Under the pieces are notes generated by a model. That model saw only the letters and a list, made by a program, of their open reading frames with translations. It did not search any database and had not been told where the DNA came from. From Clostridia bacterium (GTDB lineage Bacteria > Bacillota > Clostridia > Christensenellales > CAG-138), in assembly GCA_017395105.1 (NCBI GenBank), contig JAFPWD010000032.1, positions 1 through 59,379 of the forward strand: 59,379 nucleotides of DNA. Reading direction: 5' to 3'. Shown here piece by piece: positions 28,042 through 56,421 of this stretch (position 1 is its first letter; every line of letters starts with the position of its first letter). A program made the translations under genes and the position numbers.

Positions 28042-28581
28042 ATGCTTTGGACTAACATTTTCGCCGGCTTCGGCGGTCAGGGCGTTCTGCTCATCGGTCA
28101 GCTTCTCGCCTATGCAGGAATGTACGAAGGCAAGAACGTAAGCTGGCTCCCCTCCTACGGCCCCGAGATGCGCGGCGGCACTGCGAACTGCTCCGTCGTC
28201 GTTTCCGACGAGCCCATCGCTTCGCCTGTTCTCTCCATGGCTGATTGCGTTATCGCGATGAACACCCCCTCGCTCGACAAGTTCGAGTCCTGCGTAAACC
28301 CCGGCGGCAAGCTCTTCATCAACAGCTCCATCATTGAGAAGAAGGCCACCCGCACCGATATCGAGGTCTACTACGTTCCCTGCAACGAGGTCGCCGATCA
28401 GCTCGGCAACCCCAAGGTAGCGAACATGGCGATGCTCGGCGCTTATCTTGAGGCCACCAAGGCCGCCAAGACCGAGAGCGTTCTCGATGCGCTGCTCTAT
28501 AAGCTCGGCGAGAAGAAGGCGCACCTCATTCCCCTCAACCGTGAGGCAATAGAAAAGGGTGCCGAGAGCATCAAGAAATAA
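28042..28581 (+). CDS. 2-oxoacid:ferredoxin oxidoreductase gamma subunit
   Basis: A 179-residue gamma subunit. The N-terminus [20 protein letters not shown], then [36 protein letters not shown] and a C-terminal [16 protein letters not shown] are standard for the family. It binds the CoA-side domain of the heterotetramer. An AAGGAGG site precedes it, two bases after the beta stop. A terminator follows, so the operon ends here with four genes. Confidence 0.9.
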
Positions 28582-28597
28582 TCACGCTTTGTTTATC

Positions 28598-28634
28598 AAA
28601 ACCGGCGTCCCCTTTGGGATGCCGGTTTTGAGTA
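28598..28634 (+). terminator. Terminator of the vor operon
   Basis: AAAACCGGC and GCCGGTTTT form a nine-base stem with a 14-nt loop. The U-tract is part of the second arm. It lies 17 bases past the gamma stop. Confidence 0.75.
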
Positions 28635-28664
28635 GCGAATAGCGAATAGTGAATAGTGAATAGC
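28633..28664. repeat. Heptanucleotide tandem repeat TAG[C/T]GAA
   Basis: Two TAGCGAA and two TAGTGAA units follow each other without gaps, then TAGCTGA. Such heptamer strings occur between genes in several Clostridia and are prone to slippage. Confidence 0.75.
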
Positions 28665-28747
28665 TGAGATCGATATCCCCGCGGGATATCTTCGAAAATA
28701 TGTTTTGAGCGAACCTGAAACCGAGTAAGAGCATACGGGGGCCGATC

Positions 28748-29146
28748 ATGGAAAATGAAAACAAAATGAATAGCAATATTATCCCGAGCGCCGAGCATCC
28801 GGCATACTGTGGCTTCGACTGCGGGCGCTGTCCGGTCTACCGCGCCACGGCCGATAACGATGTGCAGCTGAAGCGGGAGCTTATCAAAAAGTACTCCACA
28901 CCCGAAAGGCAGCTCACCGAGGCGGATATAAGCTGCCTTGGCTGCAAGGCGGAGAAGCGGTATCTTCACGCCTACTGTGAGGAGTGCGCTATAAGGCTCT
29001 GCGCCGTGCGGCACGAAGTTTCATATAACTGCGGCGAATGTGAAAGCTATCCTTGCTCCGAGATCAAAAAGAGGATACCGGCTGAAGGGGAGAGCAGGGC
29101 AAATATGGATGCTGTGAACCGCGCAAAGCTTGCAATGGATAATTGA
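28748..29146 (+). CDS. DUF3795-type cysteine-rich protein
   Basis: A 132-residue cytoplasmic protein rich in cysteine pairs: AYCGFDCGRCPVY near residue 18, CLGCKAEK, HAYCEECAIRLCAVR and NCGECESYPCSEI. The spacing (CGxxCxxCP at the start and CxxC pairs later) matches DUF3795 proteins, suspected to bind zinc or an Fe-S cluster. Their function is unknown. The ATG has GGGGG seven bases upstream, a moderate site. The gene stands alone between the vor terminator and the dockerin cluster. Confidence 0.7.
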   Translation: MENENKMNSNIIPSAEHPAYCGFDCGRCPVYRATADNDVQLKRELIKKYSTPERQLTEADISCLGCKAEKRYLHAYCEECAIRLCAVRHEVSYNCGECESYPCSEIKKRIPAEGESRANMDAVNRAKLAMDN

Positions 29147-29226
29147 GCGAAGCTGAGGAATGCCGATACTTTAATATTACTGCGTATCGTAAAGAAATAA
29201 TATACGAAAACGCGGGCGGTAAACCG

Positions 29227-29255
29227 TTGAAAAGTCACTCGTTTTGTTATACAAT
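29227..29255 (+). promoter_or_regulatory. Promoter for the thioredoxin-dockerin cluster
   Basis: TTGAAA, 17 bp, TACAAT, about 44 bp before the first start codon. Confidence 0.65.
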
Positions 29256-29299
29256 ACAATATAGGATAAAATCCTAACCAAATCCAAGGAGGAAAAAAC

Positions 29300-30067
29300 A
29301 TGAAAAGGATCCTTTCGCTGATGCTCGCTGCGGTTCTTGCACTCGGCATCGTATCCCCGGCGCTTGCCAAGACCACGCCCGAGCTACCTACCCGCGGCGA
29401 TGCCATCGGCATGAACATCTCCGACTTCGCTACCGTCGATCTGGAAAACAACCCCGTTGACGGCTCCATCTTCCGTGAAAACACTCTCACCGTTGTAAAT
29501 ATGTGGGCAACCTGGTGCGGTCCGTGCCGCAGCGAGATGCCGCATTTTCAGACCGTTCATGAAACCTACAGCGCAACTCCCGAGGATGATGTTATGATGC
29601 TCGGCGTTCTGCTCATCAATGGCTCGTCAACCGTAACCACCGGAAGGCAGTTTCTCTCTCAGAACGGCATAACCTTCTATAATATTGTCCATTGCAACAC
29701 CTTTATCGACGTCCTTTACACCACTGATGACAACAACACCGGCTCTGTCAGCATACCGCAGACTGTTTTTGTGGACAGAAACGGCGTTATCCGCGATCAT
29801 TTCGTTGGCGCATTCAGCAGCTATGCGCAGCTTGATTATTTCGTTTCCGATTGGCTCGAGACCCTTCTTGACGAAGAAGCAAATGCGATCACTCCGGGCG
29901 ACGTTGACAGCGACGGCAGCGTTGCCATTGGCGATGCCGTGATCGTTATGCGTATGGCTATGGGTCTTGCTGAAGAAAGCAACATCGATGCTGCGGATAT
30001 CAACGGCAACGGCAGCGTGGACATCGGCGATGCCGTTCAGATACTGCGCATGGCGATGGGTCTGTAA
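29300..30067 (+). CDS. Secreted TlpA/ResA-like thioredoxin-fold protein with dockerin-like domain, copy 1
   Basis: A 255-residue exported protein. A Sec signal peptide (cleavage after about residue 23, SPALA) leads into a thioredoxin-fold domain with a CGPC active site at C73/C76 and a cis-proline in SIPQTVFVDRNG. From residue 200 there is a dockerin-like module of two EF-hand-type calcium loops, DVDSDGSVAIGD and DINGNGSVDIGD, each followed by a short amphipathic helix VMRMAMGL or ILRMAMGL. Dockerins bind cohesins in cellulosome-like assemblies. Here the redoxin would be held on a surface scaffold; no cohesin gene is in the window. It has an AAGGAGG site and is the most diverged of three tandem copies. 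Confidence 0.85.
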   Translation: MKRILSLMLAAVLALGIVSPALAKTTPELPTRGDAIGMNISDFATVDLENNPVDGSIFRENTLTVVNMWATWCGPCRSEMPHFQTVHETYSATPEDDVMMLGVLLINGSSTVTTGRQFLSQNGITFYNIVHCNTFIDVLYTTDDNNTGSVSIPQTVFVDRNGVIRDHFVGAFSSYAQLDYFVSDWLETLLDEEANAITPGDVDSDGSVAIGDAVIVMRMAMGLAEESNIDAADINGNGSVDIGDAVQILRMAMGL

Positions 30068-30112
30068 GACTTTTTAACCGAAACCGATAGATTTTCAAGA
30101 AAGGAAAAGCGT

Positions 30113-30853
30113 ATGAAAAAGATTATTGCTATAGCTATGGCGGCGCTTCTCGCTCTTTCGAGCTTTGCCGTTGCTTCCGCTAAGACCGTTGACGGCACGC
30201 GTGAGGCGATCGGCATGAGCATTGCCGGCTTCTCAACCCAGGATCTCTACGGCAACCCTGTAACGAGCGATATCCTTGACGATGTGGTTTGCACCGTTGT
30301 CAACGAATGGGCGACCTGGTGCGGCCCCTGCGTAGCCGAGATGCCGCATATCCAGGCGATGCATGAGTATTACAGCTCCACACACGAGGCGGACGTTCAG
30401 ATCATCGGCTCCGTGTACGTTTCAGGCTCCTGCACCCCCACGAGCGCATTGCAGTTCCTTGAGTCCAACGGCTATACCTGGCTGAACGTGCGTGAGGACA
30501 GCATCCTCGCGAACGCGTTCAACACCACCCAATCCATCCCCTCCACCCTGATCGTGGATCGCCAAGGCGTTATTCGCGACCACTGGGTCGGCAGCTTCTC
30601 AAGCTCCGCTCAGCTTCAGAACTTCATAGACGGCTGGTATCAGACCCTGCTCGAAGAGGAGGGCGGCCCCGAAGTCATCCCCGGCGACATGGATGCCAGC
30701 GGCAGCGTTGAAATGGGCGATGCGGTGCTTGCGCTGCGTATGTCTCTCGGTCTGATTGAGGCAGCCAACCTCGAGGCCGGCGATTTCAACGGCAATGGCA
30801 ATATGGACGTTTCGGATGCCATTCAGATCCTGCGCATGGCGATGGGACTTTGA
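30113..30853 (+). CDS. Secreted TlpA/ResA-like thioredoxin-fold protein with dockerin-like domain, copy 2
   Basis: A 246-residue homologue of copies 1 and 3. Its signal peptide ends near SFAVASA. The active site is CGPC at C70/C73, in a VNEWATWCGPCVAEMPH context. A third cysteine occurs in SGSCTPTSA. The cis-proline segment is SIPSTLIVDRQGVIRDHWVG. The C-terminal dockerin-like loops are DMDASGSVEMGD and DFNGNGNMDVSD, followed by ALRMSLGL and ILRMAMGL helices. It is separated from copy 1 by 45 bases with AAGGAAAAGCG as ribosome binding site. It is closer to copy 3 than to copy 1. Surface disulfide exchange is inferred. Confidence 0.85.
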   Translation: MKKIIAIAMAALLALSSFAVASAKTVDGTREAIGMSIAGFSTQDLYGNPVTSDILDDVVCTVVNEWATWCGPCVAEMPHIQAMHEYYSSTHEADVQIIGSVYVSGSCTPTSALQFLESNGYTWLNVREDSILANAFNTTQSIPSTLIVDRQGVIRDHWVGSFSSSAQLQNFIDGWYQTLLEEEGGPEVIPGDMDASGSVEMGDAVLALRMSLGLIEAANLEAGDFNGNGNMDVSDAIQILRMAMGL

Positions 30854-30866
30854 TAACGGTTTTTCG

Positions 30867-30889
30867 GCCGCAGCTCGGGCTGCGGCCTG
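30867..30889 (+). other. Hairpin between copies 2 and 3
   Basis: GGCCGCAG and CTGCGGCC form a perfect stem around CTCGGG-type loop bases, preceded by a T-run and followed by an A-rich tract. It lacks a downstream U-tract, so it is probably a processing or partial attenuation point between the genes. Confidence 0.45.
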
Positions 30890-30907
30890 AATAAACAAAA
30901 AAATACT

Positions 30908-31669
30908 TTGAAAGGAGATAGACAAATGAAGAAATTCCTCGCTGTTCTTCTGTCTGCATTTCTCACCCTCTCAAGCTTCGGCCTCGTTTTTGCCGAAACG
31001 GTCGATGCTTCCCGCAACGGAGTTGGCATTGATATTTCCGACTTCTCCACACGCGATCTCTATGCCAATACTGTGACCGGAGAGATCTTCGGCGATGCCG
31101 TTTGCACGGTCATCAACGAATGGGCTACATGGTGCGTTCCCTGCGTTGCTGAGCTGCCTCATTTTCAGGAGCTGCATGAGCATTACAGCAGCACCACCGA
31201 GGCTGACGTTCAGGTGCTCGGCGCAGTGTACATTTCCATAAGCTGCACTCCCACGAGTGCAAGAGAGCTCGTTGAAGAGCACGGCTATACCTTCACAAAC
31301 GTTATTTTGGATTCCGTGCTTGACAGCGCGTTCGATACCGAGAATAACGGCGTTCCCGCAACGCTCATCGTGGATCGTCACGGCGTTGTGCGCGCTCATG
31401 TGAACGGCAGCTTTGCAAGCTCCGAACAGCTTCGCGGCTTCGTTGACAGCTGGTATGAGATACTGCTTGCAGAGGAATCCCAGGGCGCAACAGGCGATAT
31501 CAACGGCAACGGCACCGTCGAGATGCTCGATGCGGTGCTCGCATTGCGCATGTCTATGAGCATTATCGAGGCTTACAACGTTTCCGCAGGTGATATCAAC
31601 GGCAACGGAAGCATCGATATGTCCGATGCGGTTGTGATCCTTCGCATGTCGATGGGAATTGCAAACTGA
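30908..31669 (+). CDS. Secreted TlpA/ResA-like thioredoxin-fold protein with dockerin-like domain, copy 3
   Basis: A 253-residue homologue with a signal peptide ending near FGLVFA. The redox motif is CVPC (C76/C79), an altered dipeptide between the cysteines, so its redox potential may differ from the CGPC copies. A conserved Cys in SISCTPTSA is shared with copy 2 only. The cis-proline is in GVPATLIVDRHG. The dockerin-like calcium loops are DINGNGTVEMLD and DINGNGSIDMSD, with ALRMSMSI and ILRMSMGI helices. A strong GAAAGGAG site precedes it and a terminator follows. It is the last member of the tandem array. Confidence 0.85.
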   Translation: MKGDRQMKKFLAVLLSAFLTLSSFGLVFAETVDASRNGVGIDISDFSTRDLYANTVTGEIFGDAVCTVINEWATWCVPCVAELPHFQELHEHYSSTTEADVQVLGAVYISISCTPTSARELVEEHGYTFTNVILDSVLDSAFDTENNGVPATLIVDRHGVVRAHVNGSFASSEQLRGFVDSWYEILLAEESQGATGDINGNGTVEMLDAVLALRMSMSIIEAYNVSAGDINGNGSIDMSDAVVILRMSMGIAN

Positions 31670-31698
31670 TCCGCATCGATATCAACCCTATATCATTC

Positions 31699-31733
31699 GG
31701 CCGGCCGCATGAACTGCGGTCGGTCGTTTATTT
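31699..31733 (+). terminator. Terminator of the thioredoxin-dockerin cluster
   Basis: GGCCGGCCGCA and TGCGGTCGGTC pair with two G-U pairs around TGAAC and are followed by GTTTATTT. Confidence 0.7.
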
Positions 31734-31752
31734 AAAAATTTTGCAGCGGGAG

Positions 31753-31780
31753 TTACAAACTCGCCGATATGTGGTATAAT
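31753..31780 (+). promoter_or_regulatory. Promoter for nadE-dnaX-hisS
   Basis: TTACAA, 16 bp, TATAAT, about 70 bp upstream of nadE. Confidence 0.55.
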
Positions 31781-31850
31781 GATAAATGTTGAAATGGGCG
31801 CTCAACGCGCCATGTGAACCTAAAAACCAATATCAAACCGGAGAACTGCT

Positions 31851-33851
31851 ATGAAGGACGGATTTATAAAAGTTGCGGCATGCTCGCCGAAAATCAAGCT
31901 CGGAGATCCCAAGCACAACGCGGATCTCGTCATCGATGCGATAAAAAGAGCCGCGGCGGAGGGCGTAACGCTGATCGCATTCCCCGAGCTCTGCTTAAGC
32001 GGCTACACGATGGGCGATCTTTTTCAGCACGAGCTGCTGCTCGACTGCGTGGAAAAGGAGCTTCTTCGCATAAAGCGCGAGGTGCAAAAGCTGCATATCA
32101 TAGCGATCGTGGGCGCGCCCGTGCGCTGCAGCGGTGAGCTTTTGAACTGCGCCGCCGTTATTTCGCCGGACAGCTCGATAGCATTCGTTGCAAAGCAGCA
32201 TCTTCCGAACTACGGCGAATTCTACGAGGCGCGCCAGTTTACGCCGATAAAGCCGTGGACGAATGCCGCCGAGAGTCACGGCATCGGCGAGATTGGCACG
32301 CTCATGCCGGTAGGCAGCGTTTTTGCTGTGGAGGATATACCTAATTTCCTTTTCGGCGTTGAGGTCTGCGAGGATCTATGGGTCGTCGAGGCTCCTTCAA
32401 ACCTGATCTCGCTGAACGGCGCGCTGTTTATCGTGAACTGCTCCGCAAGCGATGAGCTGATCGGCAAGGCGGACTATCGGCGAAGCCTTGTTGCCGTACA
32501 GTCTGCGAAAACGAGCTCCGCCTATCTCTACGTCAGCGCGGGCGAGGGCGAATCAACCTCAGATCTCGTGTTCTCGGGTCACAGTATGTGCTTTGAAAAC
32601 GGCTCCTTGCTCTGCGAAAACAAGCCGTTTGATGAGCCGGGCAAGCTGATGATAACCGAGATCGACCTCGGCAAGCTCCTCTATGAGCGCAGGCGATCCA
32701 CCAGCTTCACCGTCAATATCGACTATTCAAACGTGTATGCGCTGAACTGCGGCTACGAGATGCGCGAGACCGAGGATGGATACTTCAACACCATTCCCGA
32801 ATTGCTCCCCGAAACCAAGCTAACAAGGAATTTTGACCGCAACCCGTTCGTTCCGAAGGATTCGCATGAGATAAACGCCCGTGCGAACGATATCCTGATG
32901 ATCCAGGCGATGGGTCTAAAGCGCAGGATGGAGCATATCGGCGCAAAAACCGTCGTTCTCGGCATTTCGGGCGGCCTTGATTCGAGCCTTGCAATACTCG
33001 TTTGCGCCAAGGCCTGCGACCTTATGGGCGCGGACAGAAAGATGATCTATGCGATCACCATGCCCTGCTTCGGCACGACCGCGCGAACCAAGAACAATGC
33101 GATCGAGCTTTGCGAAGCTCTTGGCGTGACCTGCAAAACCGTTGATATAACAGCTTCCGTGCGCCAGCACTTCAAGGATATCGGGCATGATGAAGAAAAT
33201 CATAACGTTGTCTATGAAAACGCGCAGGCAAGGATAAGAACGCTTATCCTTATGGACGAGGCGAACGCCACCAACGGCATGGTCATCGGCACGGGCGATA
33301 TGTCCGAGCTGGCTCTCGGCTGGGCGACCTATAACGGCGACCACATGAGCATGTACGCCGTGAACGCGGGCGTTCCGAAAACGCTTCTTAAATACCTCGT
33401 TCGCTATTATGCCGATACCTGCGGCGATGAGCGTGTGAAGGAGGTTCTTTACGGCATCCTCGATACGCCGATATCGCCGGAGCTTCTGCCCCCCGATGCA
33501 AGCGGCAATATCGCGCAGATAACCGAGGATCTTGTCGGCCCGTATGAGCTGCATGATTTCTTCCTGTATTATGTGCTTCGCTGGGGCTATCCGCCCAAAA
33601 AGCTCTTTAGAGTGGCAAGGGAGGCGTTTAAAGGAAGCGAGTATTCGCCCGAAGTGATACTCAAATGGCTCAAAAATTTCTATAAGCGCTTCTTTACCCA
33701 GCAGTTCAAGCGCAACTGCCTGCCGGATGGGCCGAAGGTCGGCTCGGTATGTCTCTCGCCGCGCGGCGATTGGCGCATGCCGTCCGATGCAAGCTACCGC
33801 ATCTGGATGGATGAGATAGAAGAGATCAAGCCGATAAGCATAATCGAATAA
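31851..33851 (+). CDS. nadE: Glutamine-dependent NAD+ synthetase
   Basis: A 666-residue two-domain enzyme. The N-terminal nitrilase-like glutaminase domain has the Glu in IAFPELCLSGY, the Lys in AKQHLPNYGEFYE and the Cys in FGVEVCEDLW. Ammonia passes to the C-terminal PP-loop synthetase domain with VLGISGGLDSSLAILV, and a TGDMSELALGWATYNGD segment. It makes NAD from deamido-NAD, ATP and glutamine. The length is normal for the long form. It is followed 34 bases later by dnaX and shares a promoter with it. Together with nadK it serves the NAD(P) pool. Confidence 0.95.
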   Translation: MKDGFIKVAACSPKIKLGDPKHNADLVIDAIKRAAAEGVTLIAFPELCLSGYTMGDLFQHELLLDCVEKELLRIKREVQKLHIIAIVGAPVRCSGELLNCAAVISPDSSIAFVAKQHLPNYGEFYEARQFTPIKPWTNAAESHGIGEIGTLMPVGSVFAVEDIPNFLFGVEVCEDLWVVEAPSNLISLNGALFIVNCSASDELIGKADYRRSLVAVQSAKTSSAYLYVSAGEGESTSDLVFSGHSMCFENGSLLCENKPFDEPGKLMITEIDLGKLLYERRRSTSFTVNIDYSNVYALNCGYEMRETEDGYFNTIPELLPETKLTRNFDRNPFVPKDSHEINARANDILMIQAMGLKRRMEHIGAKTVVLGISGGLDSSLAILVCAKACDLMGADRKMIYAITMPCFGTTARTKNNAIELCEALGVTCKTVDITASVRQHFKDIGHDEENHNVVYENAQARIRTLILMDEANATNGMVIGTGDMSELALGWATYNGDHMSMYAVNAGVPKTLLKYLVRYYADTCGDERVKEVLYGILDTPISPELLPPDASGNIAQITEDLVGPYELHDFFLYYVLRWGYPPKKLFRVAREAFKGSEYSPEVILKWLKNFYKRFFTQQFKRNCLPDGPKVGSVCLSPRGDWRMPSDASYRIWMDEIEEIKPISIIE

Positions 33852-51435: not shown

Positions 51436-52773
51436 TTGTTAAAACGCTCATTTAAAGGCGGAGTTCACCCGCTTTCAAGAACGCACGAAGGCAAGCAGCT
51501 AACGAGAAATAAGGCTTCGCAGGTATTCACGCCCGAATACGTCTGCATCCCAATGAACCTGCATCTCGGCGCACCCTCGGAGCCCTGCGTAAAGAAGGGC
51601 GATATCGTTAAGCTTGGTCAGATCATCGGCGCACCAGTCGGTTTTCTCGGCCTGCCCATCCATGCATCCGTTTCGGGCGAGGTTATCGAGGTTGCCGAAA
51701 AGCAGCAGCTTGGACCAAAGAAGGTCATGTGTGTAACCATTAAAAACGACGGTCTTGACACCCGCGAGGAGCCGATGCCCTCTATAGGCACCTGTGATAC
51801 GGCGGAGCCCAAGGCGATCGTTGAACGCATCAAGCAGGCGGGCATCTGCGGCATGGGCGGCGCAGCGTTCCCGCTGCACGTTAAGCTCACCATACAGGAC
51901 GAAAAGCATGCCGATACCATTATTTTGAACGGTGCGGAGTGCGAAACTCATCTTACAAGCGATTTTCGCGCAATGCTCGAGCGTTCGGATGACATCGTTC
52001 ACGGCCTTGTTGCCATAATGCGCGCAATGAACTCTGAGTGCGGCATAATCGCAATAGAGGATAATAAGCCCGAAGCCATCGAAGCCATGAAGAAGGCAGC
52101 AGAGGGTCACGAGGGCATTTCGGTTCGAGTGCTAAAAACCAAGTACCCTCAGGGCAGCGAAAAACAGCTCATAACCGTTGCAACGGGCAGGGAGGTGCCG
52201 AGAGGCAAGCTTCCGATAGACTGTGGCGTTATAGTTACAAACGTTGCAACCGCCGCGGCGGTAAAGAATGCGATAGAGGACGGACTTCCCCTCACGCACC
52301 GCGTAACCACAGTCACCGGCAGGGTCAAATGTCCCTGCAATCTGCTCGTTCCGATCGGCACCTGCGTTAAGGATCTGATCGAGTTCGCAGGCGGCTACGA
52401 TGGCGATATAGCAAAGCTTGTTGCGGGCGGCATGATGACCGGCCCCGCCGCTCCGAACGATGATTTTTCCATCACCAAGGCCATGGGCGGCATTGTGGCA
52501 CTCAATAAAAAAGAGGCCATTTCCTATGAGGAAAAGCCCTGCATCCGCTGCGCGCGCTGCATCTCGGTATGTCCCATCGGTCTCAATCCCGCGAGGATAA
52601 AGCAATACTGCGATGCAAACGATATGGCGGGCGCTAAGGAAAACAACGTCATGGACTGCATAGTTTGCGGCTGCTGCTCGTTCACATGCCCCGCGAACCG
52701 CTTCCTTACCGCATCATTCAAAAATATGAAGGATAGGATCACCCTTGCTTCAAGACTCGGAGGTAAGAAATGA
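51436..52773 (+). CDS. rnfC: Rnf complex subunit C, NADH-binding
   Basis: RnfC is the peripheral NADH- and FMN-binding subunit of the ferredoxin:NAD+ oxidoreductase pump. The TTG start (SD AAGGCGAAGG) gives 445 residues. The opening FKGGVHPLSRTHEGKQLTR is typical of the family, as are HLGAPSEPCVKKGDIVKLGQ, the GMGGAAFPLHVKL loop, and NGAECETHLTSDFRAMLE. Two [4Fe-4S] motifs follow near the C-terminus, CIRCARCISVCPIGLNP and CIVCGCCSFTCPANR. First gene of rnfCDGEAB. Confidence 0.95.
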   Translation: MLKRSFKGGVHPLSRTHEGKQLTRNKASQVFTPEYVCIPMNLHLGAPSEPCVKKGDIVKLGQIIGAPVGFLGLPIHASVSGEVIEVAEKQQLGPKKVMCVTIKNDGLDTREEPMPSIGTCDTAEPKAIVERIKQAGICGMGGAAFPLHVKLTIQDEKHADTIILNGAECETHLTSDFRAMLERSDDIVHGLVAIMRAMNSECGIIAIEDNKPEAIEAMKKAAEGHEGISVRVLKTKYPQGSEKQLITVATGREVPRGKLPIDCGVIVTNVATAAAVKNAIEDGLPLTHRVTTVTGRVKCPCNLLVPIGTCVKDLIEFAGGYDGDIAKLVAGGMMTGPAAPNDDFSITKAMGGIVALNKKEAISYEEKPCIRCARCISVCPIGLNPARIKQYCDANDMAGAKENNVMDCIVCGCCSFTCPANRFLTASFKNMKDRITLASRLGGKK

Positions 52774-53747
52774 GCGATCTTAATTTCAATGTTTCAACCG
52801 CTCCGCACGTGCGCACACATGAGAGCACGACCTCGATCATGCGCCACGTGTTGATAGCGCTATGTCCCGCGCTTCTTGCGGGAGTCTATTTCTTCGGCTT
52901 CCGCTCGCTTATTCTCGCCGCGATCTGCGTTGTGAGCTGCGTTGTGTTCGAGTTTCTTTATCAAAAGCTGATGAAGCGCCCCGTGACCGTCGGCGATCTT
53001 TCCGCTGCCGTAACCGGTCTGCTTCTTGCTTTGACCCTTCCTGTTACCGCTCCATGGTGGATGTGCGTCATCGGAAGCTCGGTTGCGATCCTGCTTGCAA
53101 AGCAGCTCTTCGGCGGCATTGGCGACAACTTCTTAAATCCCGCGCTGACCGCAAGAGCGGTGCTGCTTGCGAGCTGGCCGGCAAGAATGAGCGGCGCAGC
53201 GTTCGTTAGCCCGAATTTCCTTGGCAGCGTTGACTCCGTTTCATCGGCAACTCCGCTTGCCTATGGCGCAAAATTAGCGGACGGAACGAGCATGCTCGAT
53301 CTATTCATCGGCAAGATCCCGGGAACCATTGGAGAGGTCTGCAAAATTGCGATCCTGCTCGGCTTCGTGTATCTTCTCGTAACGCACGTTATCTCATGGC
53401 ATGTTCCGGTGATAATCGTGCTTTCCACCGGTCTTTTCACATGGCTCTTCTCGGGCGGCGGCATCGACACTCCGCTCGTTGCGATGCTTCAGGGCGGCAT
53501 ACTCTTCGGAGCCGTGTTTATGGCAACCGATTACTCCACCTGCCCGATGACTGCGCCGGGTCAGGTAATATTCGCGCTTGGTATCGGCCTTCTTACTGCA
53601 GTCATACGCTGCTTCGCAGGCTATCCCGAGGGTGTTACCTACGCGATCCTGTTTATGAACATCGTAACGCCTCTTCTTGATAAATACATCAAGCCGAGGA
53701 TCTACGGTGAGGTTAAGGAGAAGAAGGGGGGAGAGAAGGTTGCGTAA
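52770..53747 (+). CDS. rnfD: Rnf complex subunit D
   Basis: A 325-residue integral membrane subunit. It begins LNFNVSTAPHVRTHESTTSI. About nine helices are visible. The conserved Thr expected to bind FMN covalently is in SSATPLAYGAKL. LNPALTARAVLLASWPARMS and FMATDYSTCPMTAPGQVIF with a YPEGVTYAILFMNIVTPLLD terminus match RnfD/NqrB. It overlaps rnfC by four bases (ATGA). With RnfG it forms the flavin relay. The product is a normal length for RnfD. Confidence 0.95.
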   Translation: MSDLNFNVSTAPHVRTHESTTSIMRHVLIALCPALLAGVYFFGFRSLILAAICVVSCVVFEFLYQKLMKRPVTVGDLSAAVTGLLLALTLPVTAPWWMCVIGSSVAILLAKQLFGGIGDNFLNPALTARAVLLASWPARMSGAAFVSPNFLGSVDSVSSATPLAYGAKLADGTSMLDLFIGKIPGTIGEVCKIAILLGFVYLLVTHVISWHVPVIIVLSTGLFTWLFSGGGIDTPLVAMLQGGILFGAVFMATDYSTCPMTAPGQVIFALGIGLLTAVIRCFAGYPEGVTYAILFMNIVTPLLDKYIKPRIYGEVKEKKGGEKVA

Positions 53748-54357
53748 CACTTTAGGTCTTGTTTGGAAGCTTCTGCTCATCTGCCTTGTGGCGGGTCTCG
53801 TTCTCGGCCTTGTAAACGAGGTCACTAAGGGTCCCATCGAGGAGCAGGAAAAGGTTGCGGCGGATAATGCCCGCGCGGCTGCCTTCCCTGGTGCGGTAAA
53901 GTTCGAGCCATTGAAGCACGACACCGAAACCGTACACAGCTTCTATTCCGCGCTCGATGATAAGGGCAATCTGCTCGGTTATGTCGCCTCCTCCCGCGAA
54001 TACGGCTATGGTGGCGATATCGAGGTAGTCGTCGGATTGGACAACAAAGGCAAGGTCGTTGGCACCGTTATCGGCGGCAACGGCGATTTCTCCGAAACTG
54101 CAGGTCTCGGCGCCAAGGTGAAGGACGAAGCCTTTGCAAAGCAGTTCATCGGAATGGACTATTCAGGCTCCGAAGTGAAATACAGCGAGGGCGGCGGCGG
54201 ATACGTGATCCCCGCAGGCTCGATCTTCGTTCAAAAAGCCGACAGCGGCGACGAGGGCGGCATCGATGCTATCAGCGGCGCCACCTATTCCTCCAAAGCC
54301 GTAATCACGGCCTTCAACAACACCTGCTCCGAGCTGTATAAGCTCATCGGCGAATAA
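53740..54357 (+). CDS. rnfG: Rnf complex subunit G
   Basis: A 205-residue subunit with one N-terminal membrane helix (LVWKLLLICLVAGLVLGLVN) and an extracytoplasmic flavin domain. The covalent FMN attachment sequence SGATYSS is near residue 182 in DAISGATYSSKAVITAFN. I place the start at the TTG at 53740, overlapping rnfD, with GGGGGAGAG upstream. FMN binding via the Thr of S-G-A-T is typical for the family. An ETAGLGAKVKDEAFAKQFIG segment is also diagnostic. Confidence 0.93.
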   Translation: MRNTLGLVWKLLLICLVAGLVLGLVNEVTKGPIEEQEKVAADNARAAAFPGAVKFEPLKHDTETVHSFYSALDDKGNLLGYVASSREYGYGGDIEVVVGLDNKGKVVGTVIGGNGDFSETAGLGAKVKDEAFAKQFIGMDYSGSEVKYSEGGGGYVIPAGSIFVQKADSGDEGGIDAISGATYSSKAVITAFNNTCSELYKLIGE

Positions 54358-54370
54358 CGGGGGTGAGAGC

Positions 54371-55012
54371 ATGAGTAAAGCAGGAAAAGTTTTTACCAAC
54401 GGTCTTTTCAACGAGAATCCGACCTTCCGTCTCGTTCTCGGAACATGTCCCACGCTTGCCGTAACCACTCAGGCGATGAACGGCATCGGCATGGGCTTGG
54501 CCGCGACCTTCGTTCTTCTCGGAAGCAATATAGTAATATCGCTTCTTCGCAAGTTCATACCCGATAAGGTTCGCATCCCGGCGTTCATCGTTATCATCTG
54601 TATGTTCGTTACTTCCGTTCAGATGCTGATGCACGCATTTGTGCCGGAGCTTTATAAATCGCTCGGCATCTTCATACCGTTGATCGTTGTCAACTGCATA
54701 ATCCTTGCGCGCGCGGAAGCGTTCGCATCGAAGAACAGCGTTCTGTATTCCGCGATAGACGGTCTCGGCATGGGCATCGGCTTCACCGTTGCGATCACAG
54801 CGATTGGCGCGATACGCGAGCTCATAGGCAACGGTACGATCTTCGGCGCAAGCGTTTTCGGTTCGGGCTTTGAGCCCATGCTGATCGCAGCGCTCGCTCC
54901 CGGCGGCTTCATAGTTTTCGGACTTATGCTCGCGCTTGTTAATGCCGTATCGAATAGAGATAAGAAAGACGTCGAGGCTGAATGTGCGCTTGATGAGAAG
55001 GAGGCAGCATAA
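54371..55012 (+). CDS. rnfE: Rnf complex subunit E
   Basis: A 213-residue membrane protein with six helices. It carries NPTFRLVLGTCPTLAVTTQA and the RnfE-type ILVVNCIILARAEAFAS-like text (here LIVVNCIILARAEAFASKNS), and IGFTVAITAIGAIRELIG. RnfE and RnfA form a pseudo-symmetric pair that holds an Fe-S centre in the membrane. It starts with GGTGAGAGC and directly abuts rnfA: the stop at 55010-55012 is followed by the ATG at 55013. Confidence 0.93.
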   Translation: MSKAGKVFTNGLFNENPTFRLVLGTCPTLAVTTQAMNGIGMGLAATFVLLGSNIVISLLRKFIPDKVRIPAFIVIICMFVTSVQMLMHAFVPELYKSLGIFIPLIVVNCIILARAEAFASKNSVLYSAIDGLGMGIGFTVAITAIGAIRELIGNGTIFGASVFGSGFEPMLIAALAPGGFIVFGLMLALVNAVSNRDKKDVEAECALDEKEAA

Positions 55013-55600
55013 ATGACTGATTTTGCAAAGCTTCTCGTACTGCTCGTAACGAGCATACTTTCAAATAATTTCATCTTTTCGCGCTTCCTTGGCTGCTGTC
55101 CGTTCCTCGGCGTTTCAAACAAGGTCGAAACGGCCGCGGGCATGGGTATGGCGGTAACCTTCGTTATGGCGCTCGCCTCGCTGTTCACTTGGCTTGTGTA
55201 TAATTTTATACTCGTTCCGCTCGGGCTCGAGTATCTGCAGACGATGAGCTTCATCCTCGTTATCGCAAGTCTCGTTCAGTTTGTTGAAATGTTCCTCAAA
55301 AAGAGCAGCCCTTCGCTGTACAAGAGCCTCGGCATCTATCTGCCGCTGATCACCACGAACTGCGCGGTGCTCGGCGCAACGCTCATCAATATCGAGCAGA
55401 GCTACAACCTGCTGTTCGCGGTATCAAACGGCGTTTTCGGTGCTCTCGGCTTTATGCTTGCCATAGTGCTTATGGCGGGTGTTCGTGAAAGGCTCGAGTT
55501 TTCCAAAATGCCGAACGCGCTCAAGGGCTTCTCAAGCTCGCTCATCATCGCGGGTCTTATGAGCATAGCCTTCCTCGGCTTCTCGGGTATCGGCGGCTGA
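55013..55600 (+). CDS. rnfA: Rnf complex subunit A
   Basis: A 195-residue membrane protein with six helices. FIFSRFLGCCPFLGVSNKVE carries the conserved CCPF, and YLPLITTNCAVLGATLINIE and FGALGFMLAIVLMAGVRERL are the characteristic later segments. It forms the membrane core with RnfE. The ribosome binding site GGAGGCAGC lies inside rnfE. Ends 24 bases before rnfB. Confidence 0.95.
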   Translation: MTDFAKLLVLLVTSILSNNFIFSRFLGCCPFLGVSNKVETAAGMGMAVTFVMALASLFTWLVYNFILVPLGLEYLQTMSFILVIASLVQFVEMFLKKSSPSLYKSLGIYLPLITTNCAVLGATLINIEQSYNLLFAVSNGVFGALGFMLAIVLMAGVRERLEFSKMPNALKGFSSSLIIAGLMSIAFLGFSGIGG

Positions 55601-55623
55601 TAGGCTAAAGGAGGTATTTACTT

Positions 55624-56421
55624 ATGAATTGGACTGCAATAATCATCGCGGGAGCCGTAATGGGCGCGCTTGCGATAGTGTTTGCCATCATACTTGGCGT
55701 TGCGGATAAGAAATTTGCCGTCGAGATCGATGCGCGCGTTCCCCAGATCACCGAATGTCTCGGCGGTGCAAACTGCGGTGCCTGCGGCTATGCGGGTTGT
55801 GCCGCGCTTGCGGAGGCCATCGTGCGCGGGGACGTTGCTCCCAACGCCTGCCCGGCCTCCAAGGGCGAGAAGATAAAGCGCATTTCGGAGCTTATGGGTG
55901 TTGAGGCTTCCGCTCAAACTCCCGCAGTTGCAAGGCTTATCTGCTCGGGCGACTGCGATACCGCAGCCGTGCGCTATCAGTACGACGGCGTACCGAACTG
56001 CCGCATAGCAAACGGACTTGCGGGCGGCCCGAAGAAATGCACATGGGCATGCCTCGGCATGGGTGACTGTATCCGCGACTGCAAGTTCGGCGCGATAAAG
56101 ATGGGGGAGAACGGACTTCCTCAGTTCAACAGCGCTAAGTGCACGGGTTGCGGTGCCTGCGCAAAGCAATGTCCGCGCGGCGCGATCGCGCTCGTTCCGA
56201 CCTCGGCCAAGGTGCTGATCCTCTGCCGAAACGACGATGCGGGCAAGGAAGCTAAGGACAACTGCAAGAACGCCTGCATCGGATGCCGCCGCTGCGAAAA
56301 GAGCTGCCCTGCGGAGGCGATCACACTCGTTGGCAAGCATTGCGTTATCGATCAGGATAAATGCATCGGCTGCCTTGAATGCACCAAGCAGTGTCCTATG
56401 GGCTGCATAATTACGCTTTAA
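55624..56421 (+). CDS. rnfB: Rnf complex subunit B, polyferredoxin
   Basis: A 265-residue subunit that takes electrons from reduced ferredoxin. An N-terminal helix (IIIAGAVMGALAIVFAIILG) anchors it. The GANCGACGYAGCAALAEAIV segment and its later C-residues form the first cluster domain. Then come ferredoxin-type motifs CTGCGACAKQCPRGAI, CIGCRRCEKSCPAEAI and CIGCLECTKQCPMGCI. These provide clusters for electron entry. The SD is AAAGGAGG. It closes the operon, before a terminator. Confidence 0.95.
   Translation: MNWTAIIIAGAVMGALAIVFAIILGVADKKFAVEIDARVPQITECLGGANCGACGYAGCAALAEAIVRGDVAPNACPASKGEKIKRISELMGVEASAQTPAVARLICSGDCDTAAVRYQYDGVPNCRIANGLAGGPKKCTWACLGMGDCIRDCKFGAIKMGENGLPQFNSAKCTGCGACAKQCPRGAIALVPTSAKVLILCRNDDAGKEAKDNCKNACIGCRRCEKSCPAEAITLVGKHCVIDQDKCIGCLECTKQCPMGCIITL

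Follow-up and report, generated by a model that had tools for sequence, protein, structure and literature searches.

Cohesin-dockerin systems are best known as carriers of hydrolases. What, then, would three tandem thioredoxin-fold proteins do with dockerin tails? The question is raised by a gene triplet in a stretch of 59,379 nucleotides (the window) that belongs to a metagenome-assembled genome (MAG) of 1.90 Mb in 58 contigs, 68% complete. Here, disulfide chemistry is apparently what is carried, with proteases replacing cellulases, in uncultured gut Clostridia. In fact, because the triplet dockerins, cohesins and dockerin-bearing proteases all occur in one genome, this bacterium probably has enzymes that cut disulfides attached to its surface.

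The initial annotation described three tandem secreted thioredoxin-fold proteins, each ending in a dockerin, and open reading frames (ORFs), gene order and Pfam matches agree on this (Table 1). For copy 3 we used the ATG at 30926, the ORF listing beginning at a TTG at 30908. All three copies score above the curated Pfam cut-offs for Redoxin and AhpC-TSA (Redoxin 42.8 and AhpC-TSA 42.1 bits in copy 1, Redoxin 35.1 bits in copy 2, AhpC-TSA 37.7 bits in copy 3), and the solved-structure relatives of their N-terminal parts, found by sequence, include ResA, StoA and TlpA. The redox motifs CGPC, CGPC and CVPC are in place in copies 1 to 3, and the CxxC is joined in every copy by the cis-Pro and a conserved Glu, so that sequence profiles assign the triplet a ResA/TlpA-type fold with CxxC and cis-Pro. 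The SCTPTSA segment with its extra Cys is, as annotated, present in copies 2 and 3 and absent from copy 1. By reading, a purine-rich stretch of ribosome-binding type precedes each ATG. The promoter-like site before copy 1 is weak evidence because six such sites lie in 28500-32000 against 2.6 expected; so is the hairpin after copy 3, because five such sites were observed against 4.2 expected. Upstream of the triplet lies a Cys-rich ORF of 132 residues (window 28748-29146), and ORFs resembling it precede thioredoxin-dockerins at two other loci (L120 and L121).

Table 1. Coordinates of the triplet genes and their features in the window.
Feature	Position	Strand	Description
Promoter, sigma-70-like	29227-29255	+	Before copy 1; TTGAAA-17 nt-TACAAT, consensus 10/12
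Copy 1	29300-30067	+	ORF, 255 aa; Sec signal, ResA/TlpA-like thioredoxin domain, type I dockerin
CGPC of copy 1	29516-29527	+	
Dockerin of copy 1	29894-30043	+	Two calcium-loop repeats; Dockerin_1 38.2 bits in genome scan
Copy 2	30113-30853	+	ORF, 246 aa; signal, thioredoxin domain, dockerin
CGPC of copy 2	30320-30331	+	
SCTPTSA of copy 2	30428-30448	+	Extra Cys
Dockerin of copy 2	30680-30826	+	Dockerin_1 24.0 bits in genome scan (cut-off 22.9)
Copy 3	30926-31669	+	ORF, 247 aa from ATG; signal, thioredoxin domain, dockerin
CVPC of copy 3	31133-31144	+	
SCTPTSA of copy 3	31241-31261	+	Extra Cys
Dockerin of copy 3	31493-31639	+	Dockerin_1 32.0 bits in genome scan
Terminator-like hairpin	31698-31726	+	After copy 3; 12-pair stem, T-rich tail

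Are the tails true dockerins, and is there anything for them to bind? In a Pfam protein scan, Dockerin_1 (PF00404, cut-off 22.9 bits) gave 35.6, 21.1 and 30.5 bits for copies 1, 2 and 3, which leaves copy 2 slightly below the cut-off; in the genome scan all three exceed it, copy 2 by a little. Against a dockerin profile of the genome itself the tails reach 81.3, 75.1 and 77.9 bits, scoring like its other dockerins (leave-one-out mean 80.9, sd 8.6, n=41), and their solved-structure relatives by sequence include dockerins, among them the cellulosomal dockerin 4uyp. The initial annotation had made its reading depend on a genome-wide search for cohesins and further dockerin proteins, and both are there: 14 cohesin matches (PF00963, over cut-off) and 49 dockerin matches at E ≤ 1e-3 (0.001), 48 of them above the Pfam cut-off. 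That the repeats lack any cohesin partner and are calcium loops of an EF-hand-like kind, as the slip of copy 2 below the cut-off in one scan might hint, is hardly credible against this content and the fit of the tails to the genome's own profile.

The 14 cohesins sit on three proteins: ten on contig C43 (nine stretches in a later domain scan), three on a C9 protein that also bears four Cleaved_Adhesin stretches (L050:8106-11879), and one on a small protein of C10. All three proteins end in a hydrophobic stretch followed by basic residues, which we read as a putative membrane or wall anchor. The predicted attachment of the triplet to a cohesin scaffold is well supported by this gene content, with anchor-like cohesin proteins on one side and dockerins typical of the genome on the other.

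What else would such a scaffold carry? A Pfam scan of every one of the 42 non-thioredoxin dockerin ORFs (E ≤ 1e-4 for 41 of them, E ≤ 1e-5 for the other) found five subtilases, six ORFs with Cleaved_Adhesin, six with LRR_4, seven with Big_2, and one each with CHAP, Cthe_2159 (carbohydrate-binding) and DUF2436. Fourteen have only the dockerin or no Pfam match; NCBIfam gave sub-cut-off hits alone for ten of these, one metalloprotease-like and two internalin-like. None of the 42 has a Pfam glycoside hydrolase catalytic domain in this 68% complete genome, and a cellulose-degrading cellulosome as the setting is not supported and was rejected. As a counterpoint, one dockerin ORF (L042) exceeds the cut-offs of the ChitinaseA_N and RGI_lyase beta-sheet models within an Ig-like stretch, and weak CBM matches occur among the dockerin ORFs. 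Because the 42 ORFs combine subtilases and adhesin domains with no such catalytic domain, the assembly looks laden with proteases and adhesins, not like a cellulosome. Two dockerin ORFs at contig ends (L041:2-1327 and L054:9458-10795) share identical first 45 residues and are possibly one repeated gene that interrupted assembly.

Judged by these predicted domains, the scaffold is of a protease/adhesin type, and the thioredoxin-dockerin family extends beyond the triplet. The genome encodes seven such proteins: the triplet, two on C10 (265 and 331 aa), one on C4 (285 aa) and one on C52 (257 aa). A seven-row profile, run at E ≤ 1e-30 against 396 genomes drawn from the order, found matches in 14, all in the window's own taxonomic family. 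In the class, 164 of 391 genomes are cohesin-positive, and the 43 tested, picked for many cohesin matches, have no thioredoxin-dockerin fusion at E ≤ 1e-14, a threshold that weaker fusions could escape. Thirteen of them do have matches at that threshold, which correspond to 14 thioredoxin ORFs, all dockerin-less, and two dockerin-only places.

Synteny, a check proposed in the initial annotation, shows how far the locus is kept. Three copies are kept in G024 and G025 and two in G020, the G024 orthologs of copies 1, 2 and 3 being 88, 96 and 99.6% identical, and in all three genomes the flanks are those of the window, namely 2-oxoacid:ferredoxin-oxidoreductase-like genes on one side and a NAD-synthetase/dnaX-like pair on the other (names by reading). 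G018 and G019 share the upstream flank and have different downstream genes; at the site itself, a copy-2 ortholog is joined by one or two longer thioredoxin-dockerins and by a lipoprotein thioredoxin. The same set of genes occurs in G017, close to a contig end. Relatives that bear a title are MAGs named Clostridiales, Clostridia, Bacillota or Christensenella sp. UBA1214, and one of these MAGs comes from sheep omasum.

The annotation had also held that the second duplication was the younger. This order is correct, because copies 2 and 3 are closest (59% identity, against 51% for copies 1 and 2 and 45% for copies 1 and 3) and copy 1 branches off in the tree before they split. The proof offered, the extra Cys of SCTPTSA, does not stand: 17 of 58 thioredoxin-dockerin rows have a Cys at this position, which rules it out as a dating mark. 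In fact, the split of copies 2 and 3 is old, since copy 3 and its G024 ortholog are sister to a nine-row clade (99/89) that includes a protein of another genus (G080). The division of labour suggested for the three copies found nothing in its favour beyond the CVPC of copy 3.

A division is clear elsewhere in the predicted family. In a conserved operon, a single-cohesin anchor protein is accompanied by a thioredoxin-dockerin that lacks the first active-site Cys, and this holds for 24 of 24 copies (20/20 in a first set and 4/4 at the later loci L259 and L263-L265). Motifs standing in for CxxC include SPDC, SADC, QQGC, SFPS and LPVP; within the first 20, the second Cys is retained in 17 and the cis-Pro position in all. 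The window's own genome has one such pair (L080:9068-11137, on C10), a single-cohesin protein with a membrane-anchor-like tail followed by an SPDC thioredoxin-dockerin, and the arrangement recurs across related genomes of the family. The cohesin-adjacent dockerin reaches 63.2 bits against the common dockerin profile. At ten loci (L101, L105, L106, L107, L109, L112, L150, L151, L259 and L265) a dockerin-less CxxC thioredoxin then follows, with a lipobox-like N-terminus in 10/10 (seven by pattern, three by eye). Free-standing thioredoxin-dockerins keep CxxC in 49 of 51 cases (36/38 plus 13/13 further copies, the latter from 14 rows, two being of one locus), the exceptions being L120 8067-9242 and L137, for which the contig ends before the upstream side. 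Thus, the nucleophilic Cys is missing from cohesin-adjacent copies but present in the lipoprotein partners and in most copies that stand free.

How often was the Cys lost? The 24 cases should not be counted as 24 independent events: a tree of 87 rows with motif columns masked needs just three changes of the first Cys. Placing the 21 Cys-less rows, L137 and the 20 cohesin-adjacent ones, in a single clade is disfavoured (AU p 0.0136, for a group partly named after the first tree was known), and an independent-pairs test had only three pairs, which puts significance out of reach; the Fisher value takes no account of relatedness. The three changes and the disfavoured clade together suggest parallel loss in few events, about two within the group and one outside it. 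It could be asked whether the thioredoxin fold serves mainly as a binding module and not as a redox enzyme. This would suit the cohesin-adjacent group, with its missing Cys and its cis-Pro position kept in the first 20, but for the family at large we think it very unlikely, given the catalytic residues of all three window copies and the CxxC of nearly all free-standing ones.

Redox enzymes outside the membrane would need a supply of electrons, for which there are candidates. The genome encodes a DsbD_TM/CcdA-type protein (61 bits; L117 8128-8910). Lipoprotein thioredoxin orthologs (E<1e-58) occur in 9 of 11 genomes of the genus, counting the source of the search query; none was found in the window's own, 68% complete genome. 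In 8/8 neighbourhoods read, of the nine genomes, the lipoprotein thioredoxin gene adjoins a thioredoxin-dockerin, and a lipobox is seen in seven, the eighth (G017) having a run of unknown bases at the place. Because of the CcdA-type gene and these adjoining lipoprotein genes in relatives, a relay from CcdA through the lipoprotein thioredoxin to the docked thioredoxin is plausible. Two further redox loci caught our attention. On C13 (L078:2741-9133), an ORF of 2131 residues combines a CGVC thioredoxin domain, two FMN-binding domains and fibronectin-type repeats and is a possible extracellular flavin/thiol redox protein; in the window, 51436-56421 is an operon with an FMN_bind match at 54004-54324, presumably of Rnf type.

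The same components could equip a defence against oxidative stress, as in the streptococcal Etrx/CcdA/MsrAB system, with docked copies feeding an extracellular peroxidase or methionine sulfoxide reductase. The CcdA-type gene would fit, as would the solved-structure matches 2yp6, 4hqz and 5um7, which are labelled as thioredoxin family or signature proteins, the first two being Etrx proteins. ORFs carrying GCFWG, a motif of MsrA, lie near thioredoxin-dockerin and lipoprotein thioredoxin genes at L238:4022-4519 (G024) and L240:977-1483 (G020). However, these putative MsrA-like ORFs are known by five letters, the window's own genome, at 68% completeness, has no MsrA match (PF01625), and the 42 other dockerin ORFs have no peroxidase-type Pfam match; we regard this defence as quite unlikely.

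To explain the triplet we propose instead that secreted ResA/TlpA-type oxidoreductases dock on surface cohesins, are fed by CcdA and aid docked proteases, a tentative reading to which we give slightly less than half of our confidence. The triplet proteins would attach through their type I dockerins to cell-surface cohesin proteins, sharing the assembly with subtilases and with adhesin-domain and leucine-rich-repeat proteins, not cellulases. Electrons would cross the membrane via CcdA, reach a lipoprotein thioredoxin that stands on a Pro/Thr-rich stalk and go on from there to the CxxC of the docked thioredoxins. These would break disulfides of captured proteins, or of scaffold neighbours, and so help the docked proteases. 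We infer here that docking takes place, that the direction is reducing and not oxidising, which route the electrons follow, and that the purpose is to digest protein.

The coupling to proteases is suggestive, its basis being the five subtilases among 42 partners and the gene neighbourhoods. Among 33 thioredoxin-dockerin loci without a cohesin, eight have a second dockerin ORF within 700 bp, a subtilase in three; one of these three is in the window's own genome, with 26 bp between the stop-to-stop ORFs. Three loci in 33 are only suggestive because genes for dockerin proteins may tend to lie together anyway. Within 700 bp of the window triplet itself there is no gene for a dockerin protein, a cohesin protein or a lipoprotein.

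Among the roles open to ResA-type proteins are cytochrome c functions, spore functions and isomerase activity. The last of these opens another reading, in which the docked thioredoxins would act on the scaffold's own dockerin proteins, isomerising or repairing their disulfides, and not on food proteins; compare HP0377 (PMC5909903). There would be substrates, since 41 of the 42 non-thioredoxin dockerin ORFs have at least one Cys (median 9). But Cys makes up 1.54% of the genome's dockerin proteins against 1.86% of the window background, so that we rejected the idea of unusually Cys-rich dockerin proteins in need of a reductase, and the main scaffold is almost Cys-free (0.11%). Four other cohesin-rich genomes have 0.77-1.25% Cys in dockerin ORFs against backgrounds of 0.93-1.26% (19 ORFs from their top-scoring loci, often ended by the locus edge, with 12 further ORFs from other genomes or unlabelled loci left out of the range). 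The ratio of dockerin to background Cys is no higher here than in these four, which have no thioredoxin-dockerin at E ≤ 1e-14. We hold quality control of this kind to be unlikely, while taking it seriously.

Could the docked reductases be part of a larger device? We envision a surface-anchored machine for reductive proteolysis. A cohesin anchor would hold a catalytically dead thioredoxin-dockerin, whose task would be to dock partners or present them. The stalked lipoprotein thioredoxin would give electrons, and free thioredoxin-dockerins with subtilases on multi-cohesin scaffolds would open up proteins stabilised by disulfides ahead of their cleavage. In this view the cohesin-linked copy would have lost its nucleophilic Cys at least twice in parallel. 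In this full form, pieced together from predicted genes, we judge the idea rather unlikely. If docked disulfide reduction is true, a Gram-positive cell would have a modular means of delivering reducing power to its outside, and it would become testable whether gut microbes are limited by disulfides when they break down protein. The operon of cohesin, dead thioredoxin and lipoprotein thioredoxin is a compact genetic signature by which to find such systems.

How does this compare with what is known? We rate the pairing of thioredoxin enzymes with dockerins as new, a variant of cohesin-dockerin assemblies of which we found no earlier description in open-licence PMC literature. Thioredoxin is a fusion tag in PMC5301203, the thioredoxin passages available from PMC9012536 concern HdrA, and the outlook of a review (PMC12484212, in part) mentions 'redox enzymes' when it turns to associated enzymes of atypical kinds, without detail. 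Dockerins and a cohesin are reported for Christensenellales from cockroach gut in parts of PMC10266427. Like ResA, TlpA and StoA, the triplet proteins have a thioredoxin fold with CxxC, conserved Glu and cis-Pro, an export signal and a CcdA-type gene in the genome; unlike these, by reading, they carry a dockerin in the place of a membrane anchor, and they reach 50-54 bits against an NCBIfam cut-off of 170 for ResA, falling below the StoA and TlpA cut-offs too. Streptococcal Etrx1 and Etrx2 are surface thioredoxin lipoproteins working with CcdA and MsrAB2 (PMC3914529). They resemble our case in their surface thioredoxin-fold lipoproteins (here putative, from lipobox-like N-termini in relatives of the window genome) in a Gram-positive and in CcdA (here in the window genome itself), but the latter has further thioredoxins on dockerins and, incomplete as it is, no MsrA match. 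With cellulosomes the system shares a multi-cohesin scaffold, type I dockerins, many dockerin proteins, and dockerin-borne peptidases and leucine-rich-repeat proteins. For R. flavefaciens (PMC2930009) and B. cellulosolvens (PMC5590126), parts of the two papers already describe such peptidases, and the words thioredoxin, redox and disulfide do not occur in the main text of either. In contrast to cellulosomes, none of the 42 partners here has a glycoside hydrolase catalytic domain, and seven of the genome's 49 dockerin proteins are thioredoxin-like.
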